Assembly (NCBI GenBank): GCA_004173475.1
Contig: SEBU01000001.1
Location: 1,426,001 to 1,490,000, forward strand
DNA length: 64,000 nt
From: Gammaproteobacteria bacterium
GTDB taxonomy: Bacteria > Pseudomonadota > Gammaproteobacteria > Pseudomonadales > Cellvibrionaceae
Direction: 5' to 3'
Position 1 is the stretch's first letter, and every line of letters starts with the position of its first letter. Under the pieces are notes generated by a model, which had not been told where the DNA came from, did no database searches, and saw only the letters and a program-made list of their open reading frames with translations. This document shows, piece by piece, positions 2,548-58,658 of this stretch. A program made the position numbers and the translations under genes.

Positions 2548-2554
2548 AAAGCGT

Positions 2555-5723: not shown

Positions 5724-5771
5724 TATTTCGATAGATGAATAGATACTTTTGTAAATATTTGGATAGATGCG

Positions 5772-6782: not shown

Positions 6783-6798
6783 CAGTAGAGTTCCGCTT

Positions 6799-7815: not shown

Positions 7816-7841
7816 TTCAAACGACTTTCTAGAAATGATTT

Positions 7842-9158: not shown

Positions 9159-9176
9159 TGACGGAACATGTTTAAT
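9141..9176. terminator. hairpin between convergent operons
   Basis: A 15-base stem (9141-9155 with 9162-9176, 14 of 15 positions paired) encloses a 6-base loop that contains the stop codon of the FemAB-like gene. It lies between convergent genes (the TPR lipoprotein ends at 9203). There is no immediate long T tract on either side, only short ones, so it may act as a bidirectional attenuator or mRNA 3'-end protector rather than a classic terminator. Confidence 0.55.
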
Positions 9177-9202
9177 GCTAACAATGCATTTTACAAAGAT
9201 TT

Positions 9203-13975: not shown

Positions 13976-13993
13976 ATGCTGCTCCGGTATCGT

Positions 13994-15511: not shown

Positions 15512-15559
15512 GAATACTCTCTATTTTACGACTGTGTCATCAAAAACTTGCTCGGTGCT

Positions 15560-16177: not shown

Positions 16178-16225
16178 AACGCCGTTCCTGTCATTAATAG
16201 TGAATGCGTGTCCTCGATATTGGAA

Positions 16226-19165: not shown

Positions 19166-19181
19166 ATTAGTATAGGTTTTT

Positions 19182-21130: not shown

Positions 21131-21583
21131 TTATGTAGGCGCGGGGAAATTTTTAACAAAGTTGAATGCAAATTCCGTAGCGCCCTTGTCTTGAAAATGT
21201 TTTAGTCTTTCCTTCCCTTCGTCAATGCTTGGGGTGTGGGAAGCAGGAATCCACCAAAGCGTGTGATGTGCTTCATCCATTTTGTTAAACCAGGAACTTC
21301 TCTCTTTTAGCAGCTCTATGTGTACAGATCTGTAGACATAATTTTTTAGTGTCTCCAAGTCCTCCCACACACTCATATTCACAATAATGGCTGGATCTTC
21401 ATAAACACTTAGCGAGACTGCGTTGTCGCCATCTTTCAATCTCCAAACAAACCCAGGAGAAGTGTCGGCAAGTTGATTAATTTCGTCCAGACGATCAACG
21501 AAACCTCTCATTGTTTCGGAATCCATTGTGGATTTCGCCTTACCAATATTGATTTGAGCTAAATGAAATTTTTGCACGCGCAT
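21131..21583 (-). CDS. DUF3291 family protein
   Basis: A 150-residue protein. The start is ATG at 21583, which overlaps the TGA of the acyltransferase gene by one base (TGATG), pointing to translational coupling. The sequence FHLAQINIGKAK, then MSVWEDLETLKNYVYRSVH and a Trp-rich LWWIPASHTPS segment fit the DUF3291 family, a dimeric alpha/beta-barrel fold related to antibiotic-biosynthesis monooxygenase-like proteins. Biochemical function is unknown. Because it is the last gene of the hydrolase/acyltransferase operon, a link to EPS tailoring is possible, but such proteins occur in many contexts. Confidence 0.8.
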   Translation of the reverse strand: MRVQKFHLAQINIGKAKSTMDSETMRGFVDRLDEINQLADTSPGFVWRLKDGDNAVSLSVYEDPAIIVNMSVWEDLETLKNYVYRSVHIELLKERSSWFNKMDEAHHTLWWIPASHTPSIDEGKERLKHFQDKGATEFAFNFVKNFPAPT

Positions 21584-22704
21584 CAATCCTGAATTTTTAC
21601 CAGCCTATTCCGTAAAGGTGTTTCAACAAAGTGATAAAGCAATGGAGCAATGCAAAGTACGACCAGCGTTGCTCCGAAGAAAACACCGAATTCACCAGCG
21701 AGGCTTAAATTTTGCGGAAGCGGTTGGCCCGTAAAATACTGCGATCCCGCTCGCAGTATATTGAGCACTAACCAATGGAACATATAAACCGAGAAGGAGA
21801 TTTTTCCCAGATAGACCAAAGGCTTCCATGTGAGCAAATAGTTTTTCCCCGCTGGTATACGTGCGGCGCAAAGCACTAACCAAAAGAATCCTGCTACCGA
21901 AAAAACTCCGGGTATTGGCAAAGCGAGTAAACATAAATTAACCGCTAGCGCTATCAACGTCCATTTTGCCGCTGCAAGCTTTTGCCAATCGCCGTTGCGA
22001 TAACAATTGTATGCAATCACTCCCAACACGCATTCACCGAAACACCGCAGTAGCATAGGCCAGCCGGCGTAATCCAAACCTAAATTACCAAAATATGCTT
22101 CGACGGATGAAAGTACTGCAAAAATAATAATTGCACTGATCATCATCACCAACTTGCTTGCGTGATGAAGCCGTAAAATCAACCACGGTACTGTGAAATA
22201 AATTAACCACTCAGCACTAATGGACCAAGCCGGTTGATTCCAGAAGGCTTCCCAATGAAAAGTTTGTACTAAAAATAAATTGGTTACGAACGTAAGCGGC
22301 GTATCACTGCCGGTAAAGGGAGTATCGAGTCGTTCTGCGTTTGTAGCGTGAGTTGAGATCAGCCACCATTGAAACAATTCAAATAACAAAAACAATAACA
22401 ACATAAATAAATGCAGCGGATATACACGCGCAAAACGCGCCCACATAAATTTACGGTAATCCTGCTTGGATACTCTTGTTGCAAAGCGCGATTGATACAC
22501 ATACGCGAGCACAAAGCCGCTCAAAATAAAAAACAAATCCACCCAGAGGTAAGATTTATGAAATAAGTGCGAGGGAATTGCGCGCGGCAACTTTTCCAAC
22601 ATCACGTACATAAAGTGATGACTAAGAACAAACAGCGCCGCTATACCACGTAGAGATGTTAACGCGGGAAGTTCTGCTTGCCGCGGGTGAATGCTACTAA
22701 GCAT
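21583..22704 (-). CDS. acyltransferase 3 family membrane protein (OafA/ExoZ-like)
   Basis: About 373 residues from the ATG at 22704, preferred because GAAGG lies 9 bases upstream and the start overlaps the hydrolase stop by only 8 bases. Ten or so membrane segments; the signature SLRGIAALFVLSHHFMYVML near the N-terminus carries the two His of the active site, and WVDLFFILSGFVLAYVYQSRF follows. Proteins of this family transfer acetyl or other acyl groups across or at the inner membrane to sugars of O-antigen, EPS or peptidoglycan. Co-operonic with the two alpha/beta hydrolases, so EPS acylation is the natural reading. Confidence 0.88.
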   Translation of the reverse strand: MLSSIHPRQAELPALTSLRGIAALFVLSHHFMYVMLEKLPRAIPSHLFHKSYLWVDLFFILSGFVLAYVYQSRFATRVSKQDYRKFMWARFARVYPLHLFMLLLFLLFELFQWWLISTHATNAERLDTPFTGSDTPLTFVTNLFLVQTFHWEAFWNQPAWSISAEWLIYFTVPWLILRLHHASKLVMMISAIIIFAVLSSVEAYFGNLGLDYAGWPMLLRCFGECVLGVIAYNCYRNGDWQKLAAAKWTLIALAVNLCLLALPIPGVFSVAGFFWLVLCAARIPAGKNYLLTWKPLVYLGKISFSVYMFHWLVLNILRAGSQYFTGQPLPQNLSLAGEFGVFFGATLVVLCIAPLLYHFVETPLRNRLVKIQD

Positions 22705-23542
22705 TTGCCGTTGCCTTCGCCCATTTTGCCATTTCACTAACGACCAATTGCTGATCCTCTGGCTCCGCCAAAATATGAGAAGCTTGGGTTAAATAAATTA
22801 ATTTATGATTATCGCCAAATTTCGCCGATTTAAAACAATCGCGAAATTGCCCTTCATAGTTGTAATGGTCGCTGTGACAAAAAACGCTAAATAATTTTAA
22901 CCCTCGCTGTGCGAGTTGCGCCAAACCGGCTCCCACTTCGGGCTGCGGAGGAAAATCCGGAAATTGCGGCACTTCAAAAAATCGTTGTTCTACACCAGAC
23001 ACGTCCACACCTGATATTTTTTTCTGCAACCCAAGCATACGTTTGCACACACTCACCCAACGCTTCCAAGCAAACAGCCTTGGTACATAATGGTGAATGT
23101 AGCTTTTCCAACTCAAGTAACAATAACCATCAATTTGTGCGATACCGATTACGCGCGGATCTTTTATAGCAGTGCGATAAGATGCGTAAGCACCTGAACA
23201 AAGTCCGTAGAGAATAAATTGTTTGATATTTTTCTCGCGCGCCAAATAATCCATGGCTTCCTGAACTTCTTCAACGGCGGATTCTGACGCTGTGAGTGTA
23301 TTGCGGCGCGCTTCGCTGTCCCCAATACCGGAAAAATCAAATCGCAGTGTTAACAAACCAGCAGTTTCAACAATCGTCCGCGCTAAGGTCACTGACAGAC
23401 GGCAAGAACCGACACGGTGAATCACGCCGGAATTTAATAAAATAACAGCGACGGAAGGGTTAGTAATTTCCGAGGCTTCAGGTTGGCTGATGATTCCAAT
23501 TAATGGATTGATTTGTCCGATGCTGACAACGCGTTCGCGCAT
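22697..23542 (-). CDS. alpha/beta hydrolase, XrtA-system hydrolase 1 type
   Basis: About 281 residues from the ATG at 23542; the open frame extends to 23608 but would overlap the preceding gene by 58 bases. Alpha/beta-hydrolase features are LRFDFSGIGDSEARRNTL and the nucleophile elbow GLCSGA, with a Ser in place, and a late HSDHYNYEGQF segment that may supply the His. It matches the 'hydrolase 1, exosortase A system-associated' family (TIGR03100). Substrate unknown; an ester or thioester on EPS precursors is usually presumed. Starts 8 bases after the stop of hydrolase 2. Confidence 0.8.
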   Translation of the reverse strand: MRERVVSIGQINPLIGIISQPEASEITNPSVAVILLNSGVIHRVGSCRLSVTLARTIVETAGLLTLRFDFSGIGDSEARRNTLTASESAVEEVQEAMDYLAREKNIKQFILYGLCSGAYASYRTAIKDPRVIGIAQIDGYCYLSWKSYIHHYVPRLFAWKRWVSVCKRMLGLQKKISGVDVSGVEQRFFEVPQFPDFPPQPEVGAGLAQLAQRGLKLFSVFCHSDHYNYEGQFRDCFKSAKFGDNHKLIYLTQASHILAEPEDQQLVVSEMAKWAKATANA

Positions 23543-23550
23543 AAATAAAC

Positions 23551-24327
23551 CTAAAGTTGCGGTGCTGAAAAATAATTTTCGATAGCTTGTACGATTGGCT
23601 GCGGCCAAAGAATACCGCCTACATGATCAACATAATTCCAATCGTGAGGGGCTGGAGCAAGCTCATACACGAATCGCGGCAATGTATTTAAGCTCGCATA
23701 TAAATCCGTGAAACGCTGATTTTCATGCGACACAATTTGCGCTACCGCGGTATTTTGCAGGCCTGATAATTGACGTATATCCAAATTTGCCAAACTTTGT
23801 TGAAACGTGAGAGGCATTGAAAATCCATTGAAATGTAAGGTTCTATCAGTAGCAATAAAATTTGCGCGCGATTGGGCTGCACGTATTTCAGCGGTTAATT
23901 CATCAATATAAGCCTGTCCGCTTACTACAGGATCCCACATGACCAGACGCGATACATTTTGATGATTAGCAGCAACTTGCGCAGCCAAAAGCGCGCCGAT
24001 TCTCAATCCCAACAAGGACACTTTTGGAACAGCAGCAATATCAATTAGCTCTTGTACTGCGATGCGAATATCTTGTTGCCAATCATCCGCAGTGACGCTA
24101 TTTAAAGAACCTGCCGAATCGCCGGTGCCGCGATAGTCAAAACGCAGAACTGCATAACCCAGATTGGATAAATTAATAGCAAGACGGCGCAACGAACGGT
24201 GCGCGCGCATATTTTCCTGTCCAAACGGGCTGCATAAAACAATGCCTTCGCGTCGGTTGGACAGTTTCGGAGGATGGTAGGCGCCAAACAGATAGGTTGA
24301 AGATGGGCCGAAATAAAACGCTTCCAA
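23551..24327 (-). CDS. alpha/beta hydrolase-fold protein, XrtA-system hydrolase 2 type, no Ser nucleophile
   Basis: About 258 residues if translation starts at TTG 24327, which follows AGGAG by 8 bases and puts the family-typical EAFYFGPSSTYLFGAYHPP at the N-terminus; an upstream TTG at 24360 is also possible. Fold markers are VLCSPFGQENMRAHRSLR and VLRFDYRGTGDSAGSLNS. The nucleophile elbow reads G-L-R-I-G, with Arg where a serine hydrolase has Ser, so ordinary esterase chemistry is doubtful. This layout resembles 'hydrolase 2, exosortase A system-associated' (TIGR03101). It pairs with hydrolase 1 directly downstream, suggesting a two-subunit unit. Confidence 0.78.
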   Translation of the reverse strand: MEAFYFGPSSTYLFGAYHPPKLSNRREGIVLCSPFGQENMRAHRSLRRLAINLSNLGYAVLRFDYRGTGDSAGSLNSVTADDWQQDIRIAVQELIDIAAVPKVSLLGLRIGALLAAQVAANHQNVSRLVMWDPVVSGQAYIDELTAEIRAAQSRANFIATDRTLHFNGFSMPLTFQQSLANLDIRQLSGLQNTAVAQIVSHENQRFTDLYASLNTLPRFVYELAPAPHDWNYVDHVGGILWPQPIVQAIENYFSAPQL

Positions 24328-24451
24328 AAAACACGCTCCTACAATAATTTTACGACTCAACCTAATTCTTATTCGGCCAAGTTCCAGCGCACAGGTTACC
24401 TAAAACCAGGATTTTTACTAGCAGTCATCCCTCTGACTGGCGCTGAATATT

Positions 24452-24506: not shown

Positions 24507-27500
24507 TTAATTGCCACCGAAAAGCCTACTCAGGAAACCCTTAGGTTTTTTCCCGGCAACAGTTGTTGGCTCTAAAACCTGATCAGCCGGAATTGCTGCA
24601 GGCTGACCATGGATGTCAGCTTGTATATCGGTTTGATTATTTCCTAAGGCGACATCAATGCGAGCAGCCAACTGCTCCAAGGTATTCACCCACATATCTT
24701 GCGGTGAAAAACGTACGCCAAAGATCGAATCGATTTCCAGGATGACTTCCAACGCTAACAAGGAATGCCCGCCAATATCAAAGAATTGCCCGTCGATACT
24801 GACCTGATCGCGTTTGAGTGCAGCTTTCCAAATATCCGCCAATTTAATTTGAGTAGCGGTGGTTGGTGGAACAATCTCGTTAGAGTTGGTTTGGACTACA
24901 ACAGGAGCAGACAGCGATTTGCGATTGACTTTACCCGATGGAAGCAGCGGCAACTGCGTTATCGCTGTAAATTGCTGCGGCAACATATAGTCGGGCAGAT
25001 ACTGACGCAAATGTTTACGCAATTCAGTATTGGTAGGTTCTTCATCGTCTTGATAAACAACGTAGGCCACCAAACGTTGATCGGTTTTATCGAAATATTG
25101 CAACACAACCGCAACATCTTTTATCGCCGCGTGGCGGCGTAACTGTATTTCAATTTCTTCCAACTCAATGCGGAAACCGCGCAACTTGATTTGGGAATCC
25201 AGGCGTCCTGAAAACTCAATATTGCCACTGCGAGTCCAACGCGCCCGGTCACCGGTGCGATATAGTCGTTCGCCCTGGGCATTTACGACGAAACGAGCAG
25301 CAGTTTGGTCAGGGTCACCAAGGTAACCCCTAGCCAAGCCTGCGCCACCAATCCATAATTCGCCGAAGACGCCAATCGGCAAGGTCCTACCAGCATCGTC
25401 GAGTACGTGGAGTTGAGTATTTGCGAGCGGGTGACCGATATAAATTTCGGTCGCTCCATCATCACCGGCAGGGCGAACACGATAAGCGCTCGTCCAAACC
25501 GTTGCTTCAGTGGGGCCGTAGAGGTTCCAAAGATCAATACCTTGCGCCAATAAATCAGCTGCAAGATCCGTCGTTAATAATTCGCCACCGCAGAAACCGC
25601 GGAAACCCGAAGGCACTTTCCAACCAGCGTTGAGCAGCAACCGCCAGGTAGCGGGGGTAGCTTGCAGAAGCGTAATTTGGTGTTCGTCCAACAAATGCCG
25701 CAATGCGATGTCGTCCTGACTTTGCTCTTCGCTGGCCAAAACCACGCTAGCGCCGCTGGTTAGCGGAAGGAAAAGCTCAAGCAATGAAATATCAAACGCT
25801 AAGGTTGTGAGGGCTAATAAACGGTCGTGGCTCCCAATACCTGGCTCGCGTTTTACTGCATGGATAAAGTTATGAAGTGCACCCTGCGTGACTTCTACAC
25901 CTTTCGGCACACCCGTCGAGCCGGATGTGAAGATGACATACGCAAGTTGTTCAGGTGTGATCAATAACTGTGGAAGCTTGTCCGAGGAGTGCGCAATGTC
26001 GTTTTCGGCAAGATCCACTCGCACTGCGGCCTCAGCAAAATCGCCAAGATTATTAATTAAATCGCTATCGCTAATGACGAGTTTCACAGCTGCTGCGCTG
26101 AGAATAGTATTGACCCGTGCGGATGGGTAGGAGGGATCGAGTGGCACATAAGCGGCACCCAATTTCCAAATTGCTATTATCAGTGCCGGTAAATCACAGG
26201 TGCGTTTAACCAAAACACCTGCCAAATCTCCCGCTTTTAAACCCTTAGCTTGCAGATAATGCGCGATCCGATTGGAGCGCTGTTCGAGCTGACCATAGGT
26301 GTAGCTGTTCGCTCCCGCCGTGACAGCATTTTTTTCTGCATGCCCAGCTGCAGTCGCGATCCAATCGCTAACCACACCTTGATTAAATGCAAAGTCTATA
26401 GCGGTGTTGTTCCATTGTTTCAGGGTTTCCTGTTCGTTTGCTCCGGCAGCAACCAACTCGCCCAACGTAAGGTCTGGCGTTTTGGCAACAAGTGATGCGG
26501 CCTCAACGAAGCTGGTTCCGATGGCCTGTACGGTCGCCTTGTTGAAGAGCTCAATGGGGAACTCCATACCACCGTCCATACCTTTGAGCTGACGTTTAAC
26601 CCAGACATCAAGATCGGTTTGCACGCCCATACGCTCGATATCAACTTGCGAACGTTGAATTCCATCCATTTGGTCGCCACGGTTGCGGACGTCCTGATAG
26701 CTAAACAAGGTTTGTACGAGCGGCGGACGTGCAGCATCGCGCGGTGGGTTTAGCGTATGCACCAGCGTTTCAAACTGGGTGTCCTGGTTATCCATGGCTT
26801 CCAGCACGGTTTTCTTTACATCTTGCAGAAAGCTCGCAAAAGTGCGTTGAGGTTTAAAGCGGAAGCGGCACACCAGACGGTTGATAAATGGTCCCATCAA
26901 ACCACTGATTTCCATTTGGTTACGTGCGGACACTGGCACACTCACCAGAATATCGTCCTGACGGCTGTAACGGTGCAGCGTCAATGCATATAGCCCAATA
27001 ATCACCATGAACAGAGTAGCTCCATGACGACTGCCGAGCTCTTCCAATTCTTGTAATAGCGGCTCATCGAAATGAAAGTTAATACCTTCCGCACGATGCG
27101 CTTGGTGGGCTGGACGCACCTTATCTAAGGGCAAATCCAGTACGGGAAGCTCACCGGATAATTGCTGCGACCAATAACTTAGCTGTTTCTTAACAGCATC
27201 GCTTTCGAGCCATGATTTCTGCCAAATCGCGTAATCGGCGTACTGTACGGGCAGTGGCGACAATGGATTAGGCAGGTTTTGGGCGTAGGCGTTATAAAGC
27301 GTGCACATCTCCTTTAACAATATATCGAAAGACCAACCATCAAACACCAAATGATGCATTAGCAAGAAAATCACATAATCGTCGGGTGCTAGTTCGATAA
27401 GGCGCACGGTGAACAAGGGGCCGCGCTCGGTATCGAAAGGCTTGGCTGCGTCTTTACGTAAAACCTGTTTCAAGTCATCCAGATTATCAACACCAAAGTC

Positions 27501-30500
27501 AGAAACCGGAATTGGCTTTAGATCCAGCCCTAGCGAATCGCGCAATTTCAGAACCAGCTTGCCACCTTCCGTTCGGAAACCTGCGCGCAGGAGTTCATGG
27601 CGTTGTTCGATAGTTTCAAACGCACGCTGCAAGGCGTCATGATTTAATTTGCCACGTAGACGGAACGGCGCTGGCAAGTTGTAAGCGAATGAATCTGGCT
27701 CGATCTGCTCCAGATACCAAACGCGTTGTTGCTGAGTAGATGCGATTGGCGTCTCGCCAGCAGCGCGTGGCAGCATTTTCGCCTGTACGTTACCGCTACT
27801 GGTCTCGTGGGCAATAATTTCGGCCAATTGGCGAATGGTCGGGGCTTCGAATAATTTGCGCAGGCCGATGTTAATGCTAAATAGACTTTTCACTCGCGCG
27901 AACATTTGCGTACCGAGAAGCGAATGGCCGCCCAGTTCGAAGAAATCGTTGGTAACGCCAACTTTTTCCAAACCGAGAATTTCTTTCCAAATGGCGACAA
28001 GCTGTTCTTCGATTGAATTTGAGGGAAGCGCAAAACTGCTTTCATCAACCTCTCCCAGCACAGGTGCTGGCAGGGCTTTGCGATCTACTTTGCCGCTGGA
28101 TGTAAGGGGGAATTTAGCGAGCACCACAAAATGCGAAGGCACCATATAATCGGGAAGCGCTGCACGCAGATGATCACGCATCGCCTGGGTTTCAGGCGCG
28201 GTACCGTTCTGAGTCATGAGATAGGCAACCAGTCGTTGATCGTTTTTGCGATCCTCCCTTGCGAGTACCACGCTTTGGGTAACACCGGGATATTGGCTTA
28301 TCACCGCTTCAATTTCGCCCAGCTCGATGCGTTGACCACGCAATTTAACCTGGAAGTCATTGCGACCTATGTACTCAACCACTCCATCGTCTCGCATGCG
28401 TACCAGATCTCCCGTTCGGTAAACGCGCCCCGGCTTGTGTAACAGCGGGTCTTGCACATACGGATCTGCAATAAAACGATCAGCAGTCAAATCAGGGCGG
28501 TTGACATAGCCGCGCGCGATTTGCACGCCAGCCAAAAGCAACTCGCCAGGCACGCCGGGAGGTTGCAGCTTGAGCGCATTATCCACAACATATAGCCGCG
28601 TGTTTGTGAGCGGATAGCCAATTGGCACACTGGCGCCTGAGTCTCCCTGACCGCACAACCAATAGGTTACATGGATTGCAGCCTCAGTTGGGCCGTATAA
28701 ATTCCACAACTCGACATCCGGAAATGCCTTAACAAAACGCTGCTCAAGATCTTTAGAAACCGCCTCACCACTAGCCAATACGCGAACAATACTCGGGCAT
28801 TTTTGGTGATCAGCTTCCTGCAAAAACAAATACAACATAGAAGGAACAAAATGCACGTAAGTCATTTGGTACTGATTGATCAGCTCTATCAAATAACCAG
28901 TTTCTTTGTGTCCGCCGGGTTTTGCCATAATCAATTGGCTACCGGAAATCAGCGGCAGGAATAATTCCCAAAGAGATACGTCGAAGGTGTAAGGCGTTTT
29001 TTGGAGAATCTTGTCGGATGTTTTGAGTTGGTAAACCTCATCCATCCACAGCATGTGATTGCAAACGGCTTGATGTTCATTCATCACGCCTTTCGGTTTG
29101 CCGGTAGAACCCGAAGTATAAATTACGTAAGCCAATTGGTCGGGTTTGATGTTTAAATTGGGACGTGTAACTGGATAGGCAGCAAGAGTTTCTTCTGCCA
29201 TATCGACTGCAAGACGCGGAGTTTTATTTGGCAAATTTCCATCAAAACGTTCTTGAATAAGAACTAGTTTTGCACCGGCTTCCGCCAGAATATATTCCAC
29301 GCGGTCCAGCGGATGCTCCGGGTCCAACGGCAAATAAGCTCCACCCGCTTTTAACACCGCATTAATCGCGATTACCATTTCCAGCGAGCGCTCCATCATG
29401 AGCGGCACCATAGTTTCGGCACCGACACCTTGCGCAATCAAGTAATGCGCTAAGCGATTAGCTTGAGCATCCAGCTCTGCATAAGTTAACTGTTCGCTTT
29501 CTGCAATAACTGCAATGTTGTTTGGAAATTTATCCACCGCAGCTTCAATCAATCCATGCAAACTACCCGCATGTTTGTAGTCGCGACGTGTATCGCCCCA
29601 GCGATTAACAATAGCTTCGCGGTCTGCATCGAGAATAAATTCAACATTGCTGAGTGACTGATCCACTTGCGAGTGCAAGCGTGCGTAAAAAACTTCCAGC
29701 TCGGTTAAGCGGCGCTCCATGGAACTTTTGCGCCACAGACTTGTGTTATAGGTACACTCCATTACCGCCGACTTGGCCGACAAAGTAATGTTCATGTTGA
29801 TATCGAAGTTTTCAAAAGTACGGGGATTGGAACCAAACTCCATCGCAAGATCGCGATAAGCTTCGCTCGGTTCGCCTTCCTGATCCACATTAAAAATCAC
29901 AGATACTAATGGTGGCTTGGACGGGTCGCGTTCTGCTTCAATAGTTTGCAGTAAAGTGCCGTAAGTTAAATATTGGTATTCAAAAGCATCCAACATTTTT
30001 TGCTGGGTCATCGCAATTAAATCGCGGAAACTTTCTTTACCTTCAAGTTTGAAATAGAGCGGAATAATATTCACGCAATGGCCGACAAGCGCGTGATCGC
30101 CCTTCGCCATTTGGCCAGCGAAAGGAACGCCTAATACAATTTCCTGGCTGCCTGATAAGCGGTATAAATAAGCAACAAAACCTGCCATTAGCGTACTAAT
30201 TAAAGTACTTTTATTTGTCGCTGCTAATTTTTTTAAATGCCCAATTACATCTATAGGAATTTCTTTGTCCATTCGTAACGCAGCAAAACTACGTTGCGCA
30301 GGGCGTGCATTGTCGTAGGGTAACTCCAAACTTGGAGCGCCTTTTTTGTATTGGTCCTGCCAGTATTTCAAACTATCGGCACGCAATTGCGCCGTTTCTT
30401 CGCTTCGTTCCCACACAGCGTATTCAGCAAAACTAGGAGCCGGTTCCAAATCAGCAACACTATTATCCAATCGTGCGGTGTACAAATGACCCAGCTCATC

Positions 30501-31004
30501 TGCAATTACATACAGGGACCAACCATCACACACCGAGTGGTGAAAAGTGAGCACTAAACTATATTGCTCTGGTGCGAATTTAATGAGATCGAAACGGGCC
30601 AGTGGACCATTAAATAAATCAAACGGCTGTTCTACCAAGTCGCTGCACAAACTTTTCAAACGCGATTGTGCTTCAGCTTCTGTCTGCGCTTGATAGTCAT
30701 AACGCTTCAGAGGAATTGTGCGATCTTTGTAAAACACCATTTGGTGTCCATCAGAACTGAAACAGCCGCGAATAGATTCATGACGCAACGCTAAATCAAC
30801 CAGCGCTGCTTCAAGCGCTTTCTCGTTCAGCTTGCCTTTGAGATGAATAAAAACCGATTCATTAAACGCGCAATTCGCATCATCACCAAACTGAGACGCC
30901 AGCCAAACTTCGCGTTGCGATTCAGTTGAATCGACCGCAGCAGCAAGTTCGCCAAATGCAAATGGGTTGTGAGAAAGTGCCCCGCTTTTCAAAGAACTAT
31001 TCAT
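24507..31004 (-). CDS. non-ribosomal peptide synthetase, C-A-T-C-A-T, no thioesterase
   Basis: About 2165 residues from ATG 31004 (a TTG at 31007 is also possible). Domains in order: condensation C1 (HHSVCDG, residues ~155-161), adenylation A1 (YTSGSTGKPKGV; LYGPTEAAIHV), carrier T1 (GGHSL, Ser ~1028), C2 (HHLVFDG), A2 (FTSGSTGVPKGV; LYGPTEATVWT) and T2 (GGHSL, Ser ~2081). Lining up by eye with GrsA, A1 reads D-V-W-H-L-S-L-I-H, close to the serine code, and A2 reads D-I-L-Q-F-G-L-V-W, close to the glycine code. No epimerase and no thioesterase or reductase follow T2; the last ~70 residues are linker ending in a basic KKPKGFLSRLFGGN tail. The gene begins 6 bases after the stop of the PKS gene, so the lines are co-translated. 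Needs a phosphopantetheinyl transferase from elsewhere. Confidence 0.93.
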   Translation of the reverse strand: MNSSLKSGALSHNPFAFGELAAAVDSTESQREVWLASQFGDDANCAFNESVFIHLKGKLNEKALEAALVDLALRHESIRGCFSSDGHQMVFYKDRTIPLKRYDYQAQTEAEAQSRLKSLCSDLVEQPFDLFNGPLARFDLIKFAPEQYSLVLTFHHSVCDGWSLYVIADELGHLYTARLDNSVADLEPAPSFAEYAVWERSEETAQLRADSLKYWQDQYKKGAPSLELPYDNARPAQRSFAALRMDKEIPIDVIGHLKKLAATNKSTLISTLMAGFVAYLYRLSGSQEIVLGVPFAGQMAKGDHALVGHCVNIIPLYFKLEGKESFRDLIAMTQQKMLDAFEYQYLTYGTLLQTIEAERDPSKPPLVSVIFNVDQEGEPSEAYRDLAMEFGSNPRTFENFDINMNITLSAKSAVMECTYNTSLWRKSSMERRLTELEVFYARLHSQVDQSLSNVEFILDADREAIVNRWGDTRRDYKHAGSLHGLIEAAVDKFPNNIAVIAESEQLTYAELDAQANRLAHYLIAQGVGAETMVPLMMERSLEMVIAINAVLKAGGAYLPLDPEHPLDRVEYILAEAGAKLVLIQERFDGNLPNKTPRLAVDMAEETLAAYPVTRPNLNIKPDQLAYVIYTSGSTGKPKGVMNEHQAVCNHMLWMDEVYQLKTSDKILQKTPYTFDVSLWELFLPLISGSQLIMAKPGGHKETGYLIELINQYQMTYVHFVPSMLYLFLQEADHQKCPSIVRVLASGEAVSKDLEQRFVKAFPDVELWNLYGPTEAAIHVTYWLCGQGDSGASVPIGYPLTNTRLYVVDNALKLQPPGVPGELLLAGVQIARGYVNRPDLTADRFIADPYVQDPLLHKPGRVYRTGDLVRMRDDGVVEYIGRNDFQVKLRGQRIELGEIEAVISQYPGVTQSVVLAREDRKNDQRLVAYLMTQNGTAPETQAMRDHLRAALPDYMVPSHFVVLAKFPLTSSGKVDRKALPAPVLGEVDESSFALPSNSIEEQLVAIWKEILGLEKVGVTNDFFELGGHSLLGTQMFARVKSLFSINIGLRKLFEAPTIRQLAEIIAHETSSGNVQAKMLPRAAGETPIASTQQQRVWYLEQIEPDSFAYNLPAPFRLRGKLNHDALQRAFETIEQRHELLRAGFRTEGGKLVLKLRDSLGLDLKPIPVSDFGVDNLDDLKQVLRKDAAKPFDTERGPLFTVRLIELAPDDYVIFLLMHHLVFDGWSFDILLKEMCTLYNAYAQNLPNPLSPLPVQYADYAIWQKSWLESDAVKKQLSYWSQQLSGELPVLDLPLDKVRPAHQAHRAEGINFHFDEPLLQELEELGSRHGATLFMVIIGLYALTLHRYSRQDDILVSVPVSARNQMEISGLMGPFINRLVCRFRFKPQRTFASFLQDVKKTVLEAMDNQDTQFETLVHTLNPPRDAARPPLVQTLFSYQDVRNRGDQMDGIQRSQVDIERMGVQTDLDVWVKRQLKGMDGGMEFPIELFNKATVQAIGTSFVEAASLVAKTPDLTLGELVAAGANEQETLKQWNNTAIDFAFNQGVVSDWIATAAGHAEKNAVTAGANSYTYGQLEQRSNRIAHYLQAKGLKAGDLAGVLVKRTCDLPALIIAIWKLGAAYVPLDPSYPSARVNTILSAAAVKLVISDSDLINNLGDFAEAAVRVDLAENDIAHSSDKLPQLLITPEQLAYVIFTSGSTGVPKGVEVTQGALHNFIHAVKREPGIGSHDRLLALTTLAFDISLLELFLPLTSGASVVLASEEQSQDDIALRHLLDEHQITLLQATPATWRLLLNAGWKVPSGFRGFCGGELLTTDLAADLLAQGIDLWNLYGPTEATVWTSAYRVRPAGDDGATEIYIGHPLANTQLHVLDDAGRTLPIGVFGELWIGGAGLARGYLGDPDQTAARFVVNAQGERLYRTGDRARWTRSGNIEFSGRLDSQIKLRGFRIELEEIEIQLRRHAAIKDVAVVLQYFDKTDQRLVAYVVYQDDEEPTNTELRKHLRQYLPDYMLPQQFTAITQLPLLPSGKVNRKSLSAPVVVQTNSNEIVPPTTATQIKLADIWKAALKRDQVSIDGQFFDIGGHSLLALEVILEIDSIFGVRFSPQDMWVNTLEQLAARIDVALGNNQTDIQADIHGQPAAIPADQVLEPTTVAGKKPKGFLSRLFGGN

Positions 31005-31010
31005 CAATCA

Positions 31011-34000
31011 TCAACCTTGCCATTTTTCAAATTGGCTTGGGTCTTTGGCAGAAGGAACGTACCAAACCGCACGTCCTTCCTCATCGCGACCCAATTTTGC
31101 GCCTGGAGCTGGTGGAGTGAAGTGTTGCTTCTGATAATCGCTTTCTACAGGCGACGCACTTTTATCTAAGGCACTCTGATCTATCTCAAGAAAACTTTCA
31201 GCGGATGCTGCGCGTGCTGTTGCGGCTTTGCCGTCAGCAGCGGGGAAAAATTCCATCACCAACATTTCATCCATTGCTGCTTTGAACGCGCTGATGATGA
31301 ATTCAATATCTTCATCGCTATGCGCGGTGGTAATAAATGTTGGGCGTGCATCCCACACGTGAATACCTTTTTCACGGAGCAATACATACATTAATTCTTC
31401 GTAAGGAATGTCCTGCGGAATTTTGATTTTGCACATGGAACCGCAGTTAGCAATTTTAACGGGCGCGCCTACTAATTTCGCGTAATTGTTAATCTCATTC
31501 ACCATTCGATCAGCGCGAGCGTTCAACCACAATTGCAAATCTGGTTCAGCTTTTAATTTATTTAATACTGCAACTGACGCTGCCAACACCAAAGGGTGGC
31601 GTACGAAAGTACCGGCGAAATAAGTCACCCCAACTTCCGGCGCGGAATTATCACCATACTGCCATTGGCCACCATCAAGCGCATCCATAAATTCGGCTTT
31701 ACCGGCGATAACACCAATTGGCAAACCGCCGCCGACAATTTTTCCGTAGGTGCAGATGTCCGCATCGATACCGTAAAAACCTTGCGCACCACGCTGATGA
31801 ATACGGAAGCCAGTAATAACTTCATCAAAAATAAAGGCGATATTTTTTTCGCTACAAATTTTTCGCGCTTTCTTTAGGAACTCGCGTGGTTGAATTTCAG
31901 GATAGCGACTTTGTACAGGCTCGATCAAAAGCGCAGCAATTTCATCCGCATGCTCGATGATGTAATCGAGAGATTTTTCATCGCCGTAATCGAGCATAAT
32001 GACGTGCTCAACGGCCGCTTCAGGAATACCGGCTGCAGCAGGCGTCGCGAAACCATTACTGCCACGCGTTACGATCACTTCATCATTAATTCCGTGATAA
32101 TCGTTTTCGAACATCACCACTTTATCTTTCAAGGTTACTGTGCGCGCTAAACGCAATGCACCAAGCACGGCTTCAGAGCCCGTGTTACAAAATGCAGCAC
32201 GTTGGTTGCCAGTTACTTCGCAAAACAATTTAGAGGCTTCAGCCATTAGTGGATGCTGCGGGCCAATCTCATAACCAATATCCAATTGTTTATGAATTGC
32301 TTCTTTAATAAAGGGAGCAGAATTTCCGAAAAAGTTAGAGCCGAAACCGCAGGTGATATCCACAAAGCGGAAGCCATCAATATCCCACAAATAAGCGCCT
32401 TCAGATCTGGCGACAACGATGGGGTAAATGATTTCTTTAAGCGGATTGCGGAAGCCAGAAACTACTCGAGGATCAGCAAGTTGTTTACGATTCTCTTGTG
32501 CGAATTTTTTTGAGCTCGCGAATTTTTTGTTGTAACGATCGGAAAGCGCATCAAGATTTGCTTTTTGTTTCGGTGTTAAATCGTTCGAGCGTTTAACGTT
32601 AATTCGTGTGCCCGCGCCGAAAGGTTTTATTGCGCGTTCAGTTGGCTTATCTACAGGTGCGCTTACAGGTGCCGCCGGTGGAGTCTGAACAGCATGCGAA
32701 GCAATTGGTGCAACACCCGCACTAATTCCACCGCTTATAAGAGCCAATTGGCTTTGCAGTAATTGCATTTGCTGTTGCATCAGCGCTATCACATTTCCGT
32801 CTGCAATATTTAATGCAGGCAACGACTGTGCGGAAAATTGTTGCGGTGCAAAAATCGGTGCTGCTGTCGCGACCGATTGTTGCGTTGTTGTAGCTATCGG
32901 CGATGATGCTGCCGCAGGAATTGGTGCGGCTATTGGCGCTGGTGCGGCCGGTACATCCACAGCTACACCGTTTTTCACCAAATAATCCGCCAATGCACCG
33001 AAATTATTACAATCATTCAGTAACTGCCTGAAAGTTACTTGCACCTTAAATTGTTTTTTGAGTTTCAAAGTGGACTGCGTAAGCAGTAACGAATCCAGAC
33101 CCAACTCAAAGAAACTCGCATTGCGATCCGCATTGTGCAAATCCATGCCAGAGAGATCTGAAAACAGGCTTTCCAATTGCGTAATTAAAGTGTCTTTCAT
33201 GGTAATAATTGCCGTCGGTTGAGCTGCACTGGTTGATGCAACAGGGTTTGTAGTTGTTTGTGTTGATGAGTCAGTTAAGGGGTCAAGAATAACCGCTGGC
33301 GCACTTGCCTGCACGCTCGGCTCAACCACATGAATTTTATGTTGGAACGGATAACTCGGTAGATTCTTAAATTGCTGACGATTTAAATCCGCCGATGGCC
33401 ATTGCAATTCAATGCCCAATTCCCAAAGCTTGCCGACCGCTTGACTAAAGTTGGCCAGTTCAAGGCCTGCTTGCCCTGGTGAGCCGAGTAGATGCTGCAA
33501 ATACAAATCAGTTTTGTCAGTCAAGGTTTGAAGAATCAATCCCGCAACGGTTCGCTGAGGGCCGCATTCAATCAAGAGTAAATTTGGCAAGGCCGCGATA
33601 GTTTCGATGCCTTGATAAAACTTCACTGGCTGACGTAATTGATCCGCCCAATAATGAATGTCGGTCGCCTGCTCAGGGCGAATCCAATCGCCGGTCACGC
33701 AAGATATAAACGGAAATTGCGGCGCGGAAAGTTTTACATCGGCGAGCTGCTTTGCAAATTCAATTTTCGCGGCATCCATATCCGGTGAATGGAAGGCGTG
33801 CGAAGTATCCAGTTTTTTAAATTTGATGTTATTCGCCGTTAGCTGTTCGCATAGCGCATCTATGCCGTTAAAACTACCGGATATGGTGCAAGACTCTGGC
33901 GTATTTTGCGCTGCAACAGCCACATCTTTATTGAGATAATTACCCAGCGCCGAAGCAGGTTCACGCACTGCAATCATGGCCCCGCGATTTTGCGCCTGCA

Positions 34001-37000
34001 TGACGGTGCCACGGGTAAGAACAATCCGCAGACCCGTCGCGAGGTCGAACACACCCGCTACTGCCGCCGCCGCAAGCTCACCAATACTGTGGCCAATCGC
34101 AGCTTGAGCTTGAATGCCTAAATCTGTAAGTGTTTGGGCAAGCGAATAACCTACGGAAAACAAAGCGATTTGGGTATTGCGAGTTTCACTCAGATTACCT
34201 TCACCCACTAACACCAAAGCTTTCAAATCAAATTGATGGTCGCGCAATAAAATTTCGCTGCAACTATCAAACGAAGTGCGGAAGCTTTCTACCGACGCAT
34301 AAAGTTCAGCGCCCATCCTGATCACCTGGCTACCTTGGCCGGGAAATGCGAATGCGATATTCTCGATAAATGGAACAGGTTCACTATCGCTTACGTCGAC
34401 ATCGAATGCTGCCGCAGGAGGTTTGGTGTTATCAACAACGAGTGATTTGCGATATTTGAGATGAGCGCGATGTTTGGCAAGGTAAAGCGCAAGACTGGAC
34501 GCATCAACTTGAGGATCTTTTGCAACATAGTCGCGGTAGCGTCCGAGATACGCTCCCAAAGCACTTGGCGATGCAGCACTTACACAAATCGGTAGCCACG
34601 CGGGAATATCCTTGGACGCATTTGCTGTTGAGTCCACGCCTTTAATAACAACATGCGCATTGGTACCGCCGATGCCAAATGAACTTATCCCGGCAACCCG
34701 TTCCTTGACGGGCTTGCCCCACGGCGCTGCTTTGTCAGCAATCGCAAAAGGAGTGTTATGGATATTCAAAGCTGGATTGGGCGAGTTGAAATTGATGGTT
34801 GGCGGAATTAAATCCTGCTCAACCGCTAGCGCAGATTTGATCAAGCCGACCACGCCAGCCGCTGCAGTTAGATGACCGAAATTACTTTTTACTGAACCTA
34901 TACGGCAAGTTTGTTTAGCGGCAGACGAACCGCCGAATGCCGCTGTCAAAGCAGCAATTTCGATAGGGTCGCCAATTGGCGTCGCAGTACCATGCGCTTC
35001 AACATAGCCTACGGATTGCGGCGTAACACCCGCGTTCTGTTGGGCTGCCCTAACAACATTTTTTTGCCCTTCAACACTCGGCGCTGAGAAACTACCTTTG
35101 TCCGCGCCATCATTATTAACAGCAACTCCACTTATGGCAGCGTAAACATGATCGCCATCAGTAAGCGCATAATCCAATCGTTTCAATACGACTAAACCTG
35201 CGCCATCACTAAATACTGTACCTGAGCTGTCTTTATCAAAGGTGCGCGTGTGACCATCACGGGAATAAATGCTGCCTTCTTGATACTCGTATGGCTGCTG
35301 TTGCGGAAAAGTAACCGAAGCACCGCCTGCAATCGCGATATCACATTGACCGCTACGAATAGCTTCAACCGCATTACATACCGCAACCAACGACGTCGAA
35401 CAGGCGGAATGAATGCTGAGCGCAGGCCCAACCAGGTTTAACTTATAAGCAATGCGCGTCGCACAATAATCCTTTTCATTGGCGATCATCGCGTTGAACG
35501 GGCTAAAACTTTCAAGCTGTTTGGGATTCTGCAAAACATTATTCAAGTAATAACTATTATTACCCGTACCGCAAAATATTCCGATGCGCCCCGGAAATTG
35601 GCTGGCGACGTAACCGGCGTTTTCCAACGCGTGCCACGTCAGCTCTAGCAATACCCGTTGCTGGGGATCAATAAAGCGCGCTTCCATGGGGGTGATGTCA
35701 AAAAAGCTTTCGTCAAAGCCGAGAGGTTCATCAATAATTCCACGCGCATTGACTTGGCCATCTGCAGTGGTAGGTGCAAAGAAACTTACCGTTTCGCGAC
35801 CGGTTGCGAGGTTTTCCCAGAATTCATCCAGACGATTTGCACCAGGAACCTTCAATGCCATACCTATAATGGCGACGTCAGCATCCACAGATTTATCACT
35901 AACTGAAGATAAGAAATTACCATCCCTTTGGCTGCTTTTATTTACATAATCAATAAACAATTTAATGCTGCGATGTTGGAACAACGCATAGGTTGGAACG
36001 GTGATATTCAGTTCATCGTAAAGCGCTGCAGCAATACGATTTGCTGCAAGCGAGTCCATGCCCTGATCAACCAAGTTATCTTGCAGCTTTGCCTCAGGGC
36101 GATGAATTTCACGGCGAATAATCGCAAGAATTTGCTGATTGGAATTTTGCGGTTTGGATACTGCAACAACCTCAACAGTAGCCAAATTTTCCAGCATGGT
36201 TTTTCGATCAATTTTACCGGTAGCGGTTTTAAGCAATTTCGGTAAAACTTGAAATTCACTCGGAATCATGTAATGCGGGAGGTCGAGTTCAAGCCGGGCT
36301 TTCAATCCAGCCAACGTAAAAACTTCAGCCGATTTAACACAAATAAATGCAACCAGAGTTTTATTGCCACGCACTTCACGCACAGCAACTGCAGCCTCCT
36401 CAATCTCACCCGTGTTAAGTAAATGCGCTTCAACTTCGCTCAATTCGACGCGGTAACCGCTGATTTTTACCTGGCTATCCACACGGCCTTTATAAAGGAT
36501 ATTTCCATCTGAATCACGTGCAGCCAAATCACCTGTGCGATAAGCGCGATTAATTTTCCCGTCGAGATTTAATTCAATAAAACGTTTTGCAGTCTCTTCC
36601 GTATTATTAATGTAGCCATTCGCTAATACCGGGCCACTGATATATAACTCGCCAACCTCACCTTCGGTAACGAATTGTTGTTTGTCATCCAGCAACAAAA
36701 TTTGGGCCTGCGGAATTGGTCTACCGATGGGAGGAATATTTTCCCAGTGTGCAATATCAACTGGCATTTTGTATTCGGTAACCACATGAGATTCCGAAGG
36801 GCCATATTGATTGTAAAGACGAGCGTTATTTAAATTTTTAAACGCTTTTTTAAGATCATCACTAATAACGAGCTGCTCACCAGCGGTAATAATTTCGCGT
36901 AGCGATTGCGGATAAAGCTGTAAACGATTAGCCCACTGCAACAACTGCAATAGCGCAATGTAGGGCAGGAAAATGCGTTCGATTTTGTGAGTATCAATAA

Positions 37001-37700
37001 ACGTTAAAAGTGCGCGAAAATCCTGTTTGGTTTGATTATTCACCAAAAATAAACAACCGCCTTGCGCGAAAGTCGCAAAAATTTCCTGGAAGGAAACATC
37101 AAAACTCAGGGAAGAAAATTGCAGGGTGCGATAATTTTCGTCAGCTTTATATTGCGCGTTTTGCCAGTGAATCAGGTTATTCAAAGTTCCGTGATTCATG
37201 CGCACGCCTTTGGGGCGACCCGTGGAACCGGAGGTGTAAATAATGTAGGCGTCGCTAGTACCATCTATCACAGGCGATGCGAATAGCGCATCGCCCTTAG
37301 CGCTAAAATCGATCTCGCGCAAATCAAGACGTGGGCAATGTTCTGGAATATATTCGTCGTTATCACTAATCACTACGCGAGTATCTGCGTTAGTCACCAT
37401 ATAGTTCAAACGCTCAGCGGGATAAACGGGATCAAGCGGAAGGTAAGCACAACCTGAACGTAAAACTGCAATCATGGAAGCAATAGCCAAGGGGCGCGAT
37501 TCGGTGTGAATTGCAACTACGGCACCGGAGCCAATGCTTAACCTGGACAAATGAGCGGCAATGAGCGATGCATTCTGATTGAGTTGCGCATAACTAACCG
37601 GCGCAGTGTCACCCGCCAAAGCGGTGCGCTCCGGCTGTGCCTGCACGATCTTAGCGAAGAGGCTTAAAAAGCTCGTATGAAGCAGAGTGCTCTTATCCAT
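31011..37700 (-). CDS. hybrid NRPS-PKS, A-T-KS-AT-T-aminotransferase
   Basis: About 2229 residues from ATG 37700. Domains: adenylation (~10-500; YTSGSTGRPKGVRM, YRTGDLAARDSDG), carrier T (GMDSL, Ser ~550), ketosynthase (~590-1020; active Cys ~767 in SACSTS, EAHGTATPIGD, SNFGHL), acyltransferase (~1120-1420; Ser ~1205 in GHSIGE; HAFHSP points to malonyl-CoA), second carrier (GLDSL, Ser ~1537) and a class-III PLP aminotransferase (~1740-2150; FDEVITGFR, PLP Lys ~1987 in YGKIVGGG). There is no ketoreductase. The order KS-AT-T-AMT resembles MycA/ItuA of mycosubtilin and iturin, where the aminotransferase turns the beta-ketone into a beta-amine. The starter here is an amino-acid-type A domain with a proline-like code (D-V-Q-I-I-A-Q-V-V) rather than a fatty-acyl ligase. 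A short C-terminal tail should dock to the next protein's C domain. Confidence 0.93.
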   Translation of the reverse strand: MDKSTLLHTSFLSLFAKIVQAQPERTALAGDTAPVSYAQLNQNASLIAAHLSRLSIGSGAVVAIHTESRPLAIASMIAVLRSGCAYLPLDPVYPAERLNYMVTNADTRVVISDNDEYIPEHCPRLDLREIDFSAKGDALFASPVIDGTSDAYIIYTSGSTGRPKGVRMNHGTLNNLIHWQNAQYKADENYRTLQFSSLSFDVSFQEIFATFAQGGCLFLVNNQTKQDFRALLTFIDTHKIERIFLPYIALLQLLQWANRLQLYPQSLREIITAGEQLVISDDLKKAFKNLNNARLYNQYGPSESHVVTEYKMPVDIAHWENIPPIGRPIPQAQILLLDDKQQFVTEGEVGELYISGPVLANGYINNTEETAKRFIELNLDGKINRAYRTGDLAARDSDGNILYKGRVDSQVKISGYRVELSEVEAHLLNTGEIEEAAVAVREVRGNKTLVAFICVKSAEVFTLAGLKARLELDLPHYMIPSEFQVLPKLLKTATGKIDRKTMLENLATVEVVAVSKPQNSNQQILAIIRREIHRPEAKLQDNLVDQGMDSLAANRIAAALYDELNITVPTYALFQHRSIKLFIDYVNKSSQRDGNFLSSVSDKSVDADVAIIGMALKVPGANRLDEFWENLATGRETVSFFAPTTADGQVNARGIIDEPLGFDESFFDITPMEARFIDPQQRVLLELTWHALENAGYVASQFPGRIGIFCGTGNNSYYLNNVLQNPKQLESFSPFNAMIANEKDYCATRIAYKLNLVGPALSIHSACSTSLVAVCNAVEAIRSGQCDIAIAGGASVTFPQQQPYEYQEGSIYSRDGHTRTFDKDSSGTVFSDGAGLVVLKRLDYALTDGDHVYAAISGVAVNNDGADKGSFSAPSVEGQKNVVRAAQQNAGVTPQSVGYVEAHGTATPIGDPIEIAALTAAFGGSSAAKQTCRIGSVKSNFGHLTAAAGVVGLIKSALAVEQDLIPPTINFNSPNPALNIHNTPFAIADKAAPWGKPVKERVAGISSFGIGGTNAHVVIKGVDSTANASKDIPAWLPICVSAASPSALGAYLGRYRDYVAKDPQVDASSLALYLAKHRAHLKYRKSLVVDNTKPPAAAFDVDVSDSEPVPFIENIAFAFPGQGSQVIRMGAELYASVESFRTSFDSCSEILLRDHQFDLKALVLVGEGNLSETRNTQIALFSVGYSLAQTLTDLGIQAQAAIGHSIGELAAAAVAGVFDLATGLRIVLTRGTVMQAQNRGAMIAVREPASALGNYLNKDVAVAAQNTPESCTISGSFNGIDALCEQLTANNIKFKKLDTSHAFHSPDMDAAKIEFAKQLADVKLSAPQFPFISCVTGDWIRPEQATDIHYWADQLRQPVKFYQGIETIAALPNLLLIECGPQRTVAGLILQTLTDKTDLYLQHLLGSPGQAGLELANFSQAVGKLWELGIELQWPSADLNRQQFKNLPSYPFQHKIHVVEPSVQASAPAVILDPLTDSSTQTTTNPVASTSAAQPTAIITMKDTLITQLESLFSDLSGMDLHNADRNASFFELGLDSLLLTQSTLKLKKQFKVQVTFRQLLNDCNNFGALADYLVKNGVAVDVPAAPAPIAAPIPAAASSPIATTTQQSVATAAPIFAPQQFSAQSLPALNIADGNVIALMQQQMQLLQSQLALISGGISAGVAPIASHAVQTPPAAPVSAPVDKPTERAIKPFGAGTRINVKRSNDLTPKQKANLDALSDRYNKKFASSKKFAQENRKQLADPRVVSGFRNPLKEIIYPIVVARSEGAYLWDIDGFRFVDITCGFGSNFFGNSAPFIKEAIHKQLDIGYEIGPQHPLMAEASKLFCEVTGNQRAAFCNTGSEAVLGALRLARTVTLKDKVVMFENDYHGINDEVIVTRGSNGFATPAAAGIPEAAVEHVIMLDYGDEKSLDYIIEHADEIAALLIEPVQSRYPEIQPREFLKKARKICSEKNIAFIFDEVITGFRIHQRGAQGFYGIDADICTYGKIVGGGLPIGVIAGKAEFMDALDGGQWQYGDNSAPEVGVTYFAGTFVRHPLVLAASVAVLNKLKAEPDLQLWLNARADRMVNEINNYAKLVGAPVKIANCGSMCKIKIPQDIPYEELMYVLLREKGIHVWDARPTFITTAHSDEDIEFIISAFKAAMDEMLVMEFFPAADGKAATARAASAESFLEIDQSALDKSASPVESDYQKQHFTPPAPGAKLGRDEEGRAVWYVPSAKDPSQFEKWQG

Positions 37701-38025: not shown

Positions 38026-38102
38026 GCACCCATAGCTCAGTTGGATAGAGTAGCGGCTTCCGAAGCCGTTGGTCGCAGGTTCGACTCCTGCTGGGTGCGC
38101 CA
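38026..38102 (+). tRNA. tRNA-Arg (anticodon CCG)
   Basis: A complete 77-base cloverleaf. The acceptor stem GCACCCA (38026-38032) pairs with TGGGTGC (38092-38098), the discriminator base is G, and CCA is encoded at 38100-38102. The D arm is AGCTCAGTTGGATAGAGT; the anticodon stem GCGGC/GCCGT closes the loop TTCCGAA, giving anticodon CCG for the CGG codon; the T arm carries GGTTCGACTCC. No att-like repeat of its 3' end was noticed elsewhere in the window. Confidence 0.96.
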
Positions 38103-40122: not shown

Positions 40123-40181
40123 GTAAAAACCAATTACCTTATCAAAATAAATTTGTTAAATAATCTAGATGACCAATATGA

Positions 40182-57555: not shown

Positions 57556-57596
57556 CCCGAACCTATTGTTAACCGATTTATATTTCTATCTAGAAA

Positions 57597-58654: not shown

Positions 58655-58658
58655 GAAG

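Follow-up and report, generated by a model that had tools for sequence, protein, structure and literature searches.

The hybrid polyketide synthase/nonribosomal peptide synthetase (PKS/NRPS) line described here is encoded in a 64,000-nucleotide stretch of the genome of a gammaproteobacterium of the family Cellvibrionaceae (assembly GCA_004173475.1, hereafter G000; 4.73 Mb in 60 contigs). This whole stretch, G000:C1:1426001-1490000, is referred to as the window. The line belongs to a cassette of six minus-strand genes, separated by short gaps or overlapping, that encode the PKS, the NRPS, two alpha/beta-hydrolase homologues (hydrolase 2, then hydrolase 1), an AT3 acyltransferase and a DUF3291 protein (Table 1). 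The cassette is bounded by the gene for an XrtA polysaccharide deacetylase and by a tRNA-Arg gene, 16.9 kb apart, and lies in an XrtA-type exopolysaccharide (EPS) locus whose EpsB2, chain-length, export, deacetylase, FemAB and PrsT proteins all score over their curated cut-offs. A preliminary description of this DNA had named several neighbours of the line, and family searches recovered the AT3 acyltransferase, FemAB, an ATP-grasp-like protein and other XrtA EPS genes. An XrtA-family match lies at G000:C1:1410313 (E=1.3e-43; 150 bits, under the curated cut-off of 208), and the genome holds 17 PEP-CTERM matches. The PKS and NRPS match the XrtA-associated ligase family TIGR03098 (ligase_PEP_1) below its cut-off, with 222 and 428 of 592 bits, and neither the TIGR03099 decarboxylase nor the canonical ligase/decarboxylase cassette was found among the matches listed for 30 scanned window proteins.

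Domain organization and predicted product

The domain orders proposed earlier, A-T-KS-AT-T-AMT for the PKS and C-A-T-C-A-T for the NRPS (A, adenylation; T, carrier; KS, ketosynthase; AT, acyltransferase; AMT, aminotransferase; C, condensation), are borne out by Pfam domains far over the curated cut-offs and by intact motifs; the PKS (31011-37706) ends at 37706 rather than 37700. The Pfam matches in the PKS are AMP-binding (residues 19-365), ketoacyl-synt (610-845 and 855-973), Acyl_transf_1 (1119-1414), Aminotran_3 (1762-2128) and two PP-binding domains, and those in the NRPS are two each of Condensation, AMP-binding and PP-binding. Catalytic motifs include the KS cysteine and two histidines, the carrier serines, the site of the pyridoxal phosphate (PLP)-binding lysine (YGK), and HHxxxDG in both C domains. 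The A10 lysine pattern matches in the A domain of the PKS and in the first of the two NRPS A domains; it misses the second, whose aligned code nevertheless ends in K. We take the HAFH motif of the AT domain to denote the malonyl type. The best single-stretch PDB match of the PKS A domain is tyrocidine synthase 2, and, of all PDB entries, the AMT best matches the aminotransferase of mycosubtilin synthase (369 bits vs 196 for the next family); with KS, AT, carrier and class III AMT all present with their motifs, the PKS contains a beta-aminotransferase module of the MycA type. A-T stands at its N-terminus and a fatty-acid loading unit was not found there, as the preliminary description had held. 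No thioesterase was detected in the NRPS by Pfam, either across the whole open reading frame (ORF) or in its C-terminal 600 residues scanned apart with PF00975 included.

The specificity codes read by alignment from the NRPS A domains are DVWHLSLIHK (first) and DILQFGLVWK (second). Together with the code of the PKS A domain (Table 1), these presumably stand, by standard code tables, for a Pro-like (DVQFIAQVVK), a Ser-like (DVWHLSLIHK, differing at one place) and a Gly-like residue (DILQFGLVWK), which would suggest a product approximating Pro-C2(beta-amine)-Ser-Gly. A Gly-like code right after the AMT is found also in G024, G091, G098, G099, G151, G239 and G401, as well as in many lines away from XrtA loci, and the starter code varies among lines between Pro-like and Val-like, being Val-like in G401, for example. 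Because the Gly-like code recurs after the AMT while the starter differs, the lines would appear to make a small beta-amino peptide with a variable start. Cupin/JmjC-type proteins, possible product hydroxylases, adjoin the line in G151 (L143:5902-6966) and G024 (L204:18202-19284).

Table 1. Features of the window, numbered from its first nucleotide
Feature	Position	Strand	Family, motif or basis
PKS, A-T-KS-AT-T-AMT, 2231 aa	31011..37706	-	Pfam, motifs, homologues
PKS A domain, code DVQFIAQVVK	36213..37652	-	Pfam, code alignment
KS domain, C769 H905 H945	34422..35879	-	Pfam, motifs
AT domain, GHSIG and HAFH	33465..34352	-	Pfam, motifs
Second carrier (T) domain of PKS	32979..33179	-	Pfam, motifs
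AMT, class III aminotransferase, PLP-lysine site	31323..32423	-	Pfam, PDB comparison, tree
NRPS, C-A-T-C-A-T	24507..31007	-	Pfam, motifs
Basic amphipathic tail at NRPS C-terminus, KKPKGFLSRLFGGN	24510..24557	-	Motif comparison
Hydrolase 2, alpha/beta-hydrolase homologue, Arg at nucleophile position	23551..24360	-	TIGR03101 below cut-off
Hydrolase 1, alpha/beta-hydrolase, Cys nucleophile elbow C137, H278	22697..23608	-	TIGR03100 below cut-off
AT3-type acyltransferase	21583..22737	-	Pfam PF01757
DUF3291 protein, last gene of cassette	21131..21586	-	
tRNA gene (tRNA-Arg CCG in relatives), far border of cassette	38026..38099	+	
XrtA polysaccharide deacetylase, near border of cassette	20204..21118	+	TIGR03006, 396 bits
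TviB-like UDP-sugar dehydrogenase and epimerase	17891..20189	+	
XrtA EPS core: tyrosine kinase, chain-length, export, EpsB2 priming transferase	13202..17662	-	
PrsT TPR protein	9203..11839	-	
ATP-grasp-like, two deacetylase-like and FemAB proteins	4554..9158	+	

Distribution of the line and its linkage to EPS loci

Among 20 same-genus relatives, a single genome (G003) has a match to the whole PKS, at 84 % identity, in the same place and with the entire cassette. In seven of nine line-free genomes of the genus whose loci were compared (G001, G004, G008, G014, G016, G018 and G019), the deacetylase and tRNA-Arg genes lie about 80-420 bp apart; the distance is 1.3 kb in G006, and the ninth genome, G011, was left unscored. 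No homologue of hydrolase 1, hydrolase 2, AT3 or DUF3291 was found in the stretches compared from these nine genomes. Between G000 and G003, ratios of nonsynonymous to synonymous substitution are 0.059 for the PKS and 0.044 for the NRPS, and 0.04-0.06 when hydrolase 1 is included, at synonymous divergence near saturation; both megaenzymes are under purifying selection. Since it is missing in relatives, kept whole in G003, and held under purifying selection, the line is best described as an optional but conserved block of the EPS locus. Partners specific to the cassette are hydrolases 1 and 2, AT3 and DUF3291. FemAB, the ATP-grasp protein and the two deacetylases were rejected as line-specific partners; they occur without the line in all four same-genus loci covering that part (G001, G004, G011 and G019). 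A classical tRNA island was likewise rejected, as the cassette is located 5' of the tRNA and has no integrase among its six genes. In G003 the XrtA match (G003:C18:55133-55904) is split into two pieces that overlap in different frames, one of them containing a stop, and may be a broken gene or an assembly error.

Conserved linkage with XrtA loci, which the preliminary description had put forward as the means of checking its reading, holds within the window's order and, judged by 10-kb flanks, not in the family at large. For the order, lines bearing the AMT were drawn from 13 of 390 genomes at E<=1e-100, with G003 and G024 added from the search for relatives, and a line was called linked when it lay on the same contig as, and within 50 kb of, an XrtA or XrtA chain-length gene. 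The lines of G000/G003, G024 (by the chain-length gene only), G098, G099, G151, G239 and G401 are linked and that of G091 is unlinked, so that linkage is seen in 7 of 8 judgeable genera vs 3 of 27 other KS places (p=1.3e-4); contigs were too short for a call in G082, G102 and G139, as well as in G101, whose AMT is truncated. Two further genera (G227, G248 and G352) have distant AMT lines and no exosortase match in their genomes, and counting these gives 7 of 10 genera against the same 3 of 27 (p=0.0011); by XrtA alone, linkage is found in 6 of 8 genera (p=0.0012). The 27 control places carry a KS but no AMT and come from XrtA-positive genomes with 20 contigs or fewer; they were tabulated by hand with few places listed per genome (one each in G001, G051, G098 and G104, two in G013, and three each in G011, G012, G018, G025, G026, G042 and G063) and judged by distance to XrtA only; some share one cluster. 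At one of the G011 places XrtA is 72 kb away and PrsT 45 kb, and scoring this place as linked against the 7 of 10 genera gives p=0.0026. Presence of the chain-length gene in 9 of 13 AMT-line genomes vs 111 of 377 others (p=0.004; 390 genomes) points the same way, provided that the AMT and chain-length surveys drew the identical 390 genomes, as this test assumes.

On an AMT tree of 92 rows built by a quick method, the linked label needs four changes, at least two of them forced by well-supported forks, and linkage was therefore either old and kept or gained repeatedly. The linkage is also seen in further families, where the genes are ordered differently. In G401, 4.6 kb separate the line from the XrtA gene. 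The G024 line (G024:C1:138-184 kb; L204), in an XrtA-type EPS locus, adjoins glycosyltransferases, a flippase and a pyruvyl transferase and is accompanied by hydrolase 2; as no exosortase and no PEP-CTERM match was found in that genome, this line appears tied to a glycan rather than to protein sorting. PKS lines of other kinds also lie near XrtA in G042 (C1:300-360 kb) and G025 (C1:6650-6710 kb), together L198-L203, and in G063 by position.

A survey of the best 80 of at least 581 relatives found A-T-KS-AT-T-AMT loci across Bacteroidota, Cyanobacteria, Myxococcota, Planctomycetota, Acidobacteriota, Alphaproteobacteria and other groups. The leading A domain, which the preliminary description had set against the fatty-acid starter of mycosubtilin/iturin synthetases, is thus not unusual. 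The lines of Bacteroidota, Nostoc, Corallococcus and Rhizobiales share the architecture of the line in the window, with 34-44 % identity across the 80 loci and often a Gly-like next code; unlike it, they mostly have a thioesterase and no detected EPS markers. Within flanks of at most 10 kb, two or more EPS-type neighbours accompany 11 of 77 lines vs 0 of 20 control stretches taken from elsewhere in bacterial genomes other than these, a difference that is not significant (p=0.067; three of the 80 loci were dropped as copies of G082, G099 and G401). The preliminary description had held that finding homologous lines mostly away from EPS loci would refute its reading; on the evidence of these 10-kb flanks, that is the case for the family at large and not for the window's order.

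The hydrolase pair

Both cassette hydrolases had been called XrtA hydrolases. They are indeed homologues of those families, but with 72 of 168 bits (TIGR03100, hydrolase 1) and 114 of 203 bits (TIGR03101, hydrolase 2) they score below the curated cut-offs and are not members by the NCBI rule, and hydrolase 2 has Arg at its nucleophile site. A Cys occupies the nucleophile elbow of hydrolase 1 in 26 of 26 distinct homologues, 25 of which keep the His, and the Arg of hydrolase 2 is found in 26 of 28 homologues, with Ser or Cys in none of the 28. PF00975 thioesterase matches neither protein, and the Cys and Arg at the nucleophile sites rule out ordinary serine thioesterases. The predicted structure of hydrolase 1 is an alpha/beta-hydrolase fold (mean pLDDT 80) with C137 between strand and helix; its fold search returned esterases, lipases and other alpha/beta-hydrolases at TM-scores of 0.48-0.57 of the query among the 50 matches listed, values low enough that they tell only the fold class. 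Several genomes have natural fusions of hydrolase 2 to hydrolase 1, and the Arg, Cys and His are invariant in the six that were aligned.

The pair and a thioesterase appear to be mutually exclusive. Among 79 AMT rows, 56 have only a thioesterase, 9 only a hydrolase homologue, none both, and 14 neither, an exclusion with p=4e-6 when relatedness is ignored in the calculation. Thioesterases were scored with a profile built from three sequences and iterated, and the count leaves out 13 of the original 92 rows because a locus end truncates them. In the rows kept, L080 and L125 are counted twice, the thioesterase of L091 is a separate gene, the nearby homologue is hydrolase 2 alone in G024 and hydrolase 1 alone in L053, and the lines of G082, G102 and G139, which are cut by contig ends, are scored as having neither. 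In L053 (positions 1466-9346, plus strand), from an Oligoflexaceae metagenome-assembled genome, a 2627-aa ORF places a hydrolase 1 domain ahead of an AMT PKS.

Of 45 hydrolase ORFs, many of them from loci chosen for their PKS, 38 have an A-domain ORF no more than 10 kb away (the hydrolase 2 place G091:C78 was left out). The canonical locus of G075 groups ligase_PEP_1 (765 bits), the XrtA decarboxylase (620 bits) and hydrolase 1 (324 bits). A hydrolase 2 profile finds matches in 4 of 20 same-genus relatives and XrtA is matched in 18 of 20, which suggests that the pair goes with the adenylating enzyme rather than with the exosortase. In G044 (C12:622341-624926, minus strand; L186), an 862-aa ORF matching an A domain plus hydrolase 2 lies beside a hydrolase 1 gene. 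The L184 cassette of G017 (C1:126-134 kb) combines an acyl-CoA dehydrogenase-like protein, DUF1839, a GH2-like protein, a hydrolase 2-1 fusion and a single A domain; G005 and G065 resemble it in gene sizes only.

Lines that lack a thioesterase and go with the pair tend to share one more trait. A basic amphipathic tail (e.g. KPKGFLSRLF, KRPFWRRLFQ) terminates 12 of 16 of their end ORFs vs 14 of 135 other A-domain ORFs, and as the motif was picked after the sequences had been viewed, the p-value of this comparison is only descriptive; the 16 include G099 and G102, whose hydrolase pair sits on another contig. The corresponding tail of the window's NRPS, KKPKGFLSRLFGGN, is possibly a docking tail. 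The G151, G401 and G091 lines terminate in an extra C domain, in which HHxxxDG was not found.

Interpretation and alternatives

As judged from its domains, the PKS would load an amino acid, extend it once with malonyl and aminate the beta-keto group, and the NRPS, without a thioesterase, would add two amino acids. The neighbouring alpha/beta-hydrolase pair may then take the chain off the last carrier, a role with fair genomic support, in which hydrolase 2 would act as a non-catalytic partner of hydrolase 1, since Arg replaces its nucleophile and the Cys is in hydrolase 1. It is less sure that the pair transfers the acyl chain instead of hydrolysing it, alone or with AT3, to the exopolysaccharide or a lipid-linked precursor; to the attachment of the peptide to a glycan we give about an even chance. 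The pairing of line and EPS locus in several bacterial families points to a peptide possibly intended for the polysaccharide, and the complete scheme, in which the line is an optional XrtA-locus cassette whose peptide the pair off-loads and transfers to the exopolysaccharide, is offered tentatively, at somewhat short of an even chance. This pair would likewise serve the single aminoacyl ligase and decarboxylase of canonical XrtA loci. It is tempting to extend this idea and to view the Cys/Arg pair as a new type of carrier-protein-to-glycan acyltransferase that decorates XrtA-type exopolysaccharides with carrier-bound amino acids or peptides, the donor being ligase plus decarboxylase canonically and having grown into a PKS/NRPS here and in several lineages; this broader proposal is possible but doubtful.

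Several observations weigh against transfer to the exopolysaccharide. Lines homologous to this one are common in the absence of XrtA, mostly together with a thioesterase. EPS markers accompany 4 of 9 pair-bearing vs 10 of 56 thioesterase-bearing lines (p=0.09, not significant; hand count in 10-kb flanks), and the test of exclusion between pair and thioesterase takes no account of relatedness. The G098 line, though linked to XrtA, has a thioesterase and lacks a hydrolase pair nearby, and the two pair-bearing lines of G091 lie on contigs that do not carry the XrtA gene. The hydrolases themselves fall short of the NCBI cut-offs. AT3 homologues, finally, occur in the PKS/NRPS operons of four Nostoc and one Chamaesiphon, with EPS markers only in Chamaesiphon, and AT3 may therefore acylate the peptide.

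The main competing explanation, a serious one that we consider quite possible, is that the line makes a free, secreted small peptide (a signal, metal binder or antibiotic), that its proximity to EPS genes serves co-expression in biofilms, and that the pair simply releases the product. The PKS architecture is indeed common with a thioesterase and without detected EPS genes, and the cyanobacterial operons with AT3 homologues also fit a free peptide. Such a product is harder to reconcile with the repeated placement of the line in EPS loci and with a cassette in which none of the six genes is an exporter, resistance or regulator gene. The replacement of Ser by Cys, moreover, may favour acyl transfer over hydrolysis, for which polyhydroxyalkanoate synthases are a precedent.

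It is unlikely, in our estimate, that the end of the EPS locus at tRNA-Arg is a mere recombination hotspot and the neighbourhood functionally meaningless. The presence of the whole PKS in 1 of 20 same-genus relatives, the absence of the cassette as a block from others, and the other PKS lines near XrtA in G025, G042 and G063 would fit a hotspot; against it stand linkage in other families with differing gene orders, a tree on which the linked label changes four times with at least two changes forced, and companion genes that recur with the line. By analogy with pentaglycine, the acceptor for sortase A, the peptide could also be the amine acceptor for attachment of PEP-CTERM proteins by the exosortase. 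The XrtA and 17 PEP-CTERM matches of G000, the free amines that the product would bear, and the aminoacyl cassette of a canonical locus lend themselves to such a role, but we regard it as very improbable: it is weakened by G024, which keeps the line with neither exosortase nor PEP-CTERM match, by the lack of a PEP-CTERM match in G102, and by XrtA matches in 18 of 20 same-genus relatives when 1 of 20 has the whole PKS.

Among known systems, the line resembles MycA of mycosubtilin/iturin synthesis in its KS-AT-T-AMT order (which we take to be that of MycA), in the nearest PDB relative of its AMT, and in handing the chain to an NRPS. It differs in starting with an NRPS-type A domain, in lacking a thioesterase and in lying inside an EPS locus, and with A-T and no fatty-acid loading unit at its N-terminus it is not an iturin-family lipopeptide synthetase. 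The cassette is also akin to the canonical XrtA aminoacyl cassette (TIGR03098, TIGR03099, TIGR03100/03101), in that homologues of both hydrolases adjoin an adenylating enzyme within an XrtA locus; unlike that cassette, it has hydrolases below the cut-offs and a PKS/NRPS line in place of ligase and decarboxylase. N-acyl amino acid synthases are single acyltransferases with a lipid product, in contrast to the megasynthase here. Their linkage to PEP-CTERM/exosortase systems, as cited in PMC4897644, is a precedent for small-molecule biosynthesis tied to an exosortase system. Searches of an open-access library, judged by titles and abstract openings, listed nothing on a PKS/NRPS in an XrtA locus, nor on the function of XrtA hydrolases. 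If transfer to the exopolysaccharide is correct, nonribosomal peptide groups would decorate a bacterial surface polysaccharide, and off-loading and transferring carrier-bound aminoacyl groups would become the function of the XrtA "hydrolases". Even with a free product, the mutual exclusion of thioesterase and pair assigns a directly testable role to two annotated families.

Just past the tRNA, at 38161-52019 on the minus strand, the window carries an apparent two-partner secretion pair, a ShlB/FhaC-type transporter (653 aa) and a 3945-aa ORF of DUF5649 repeats, without a match in the G003 region compared. Farther along the same strand, at 56581-59297, TolQ/ExbB-like, two TolR/ExbD-like and TonB-like genes follow one another.

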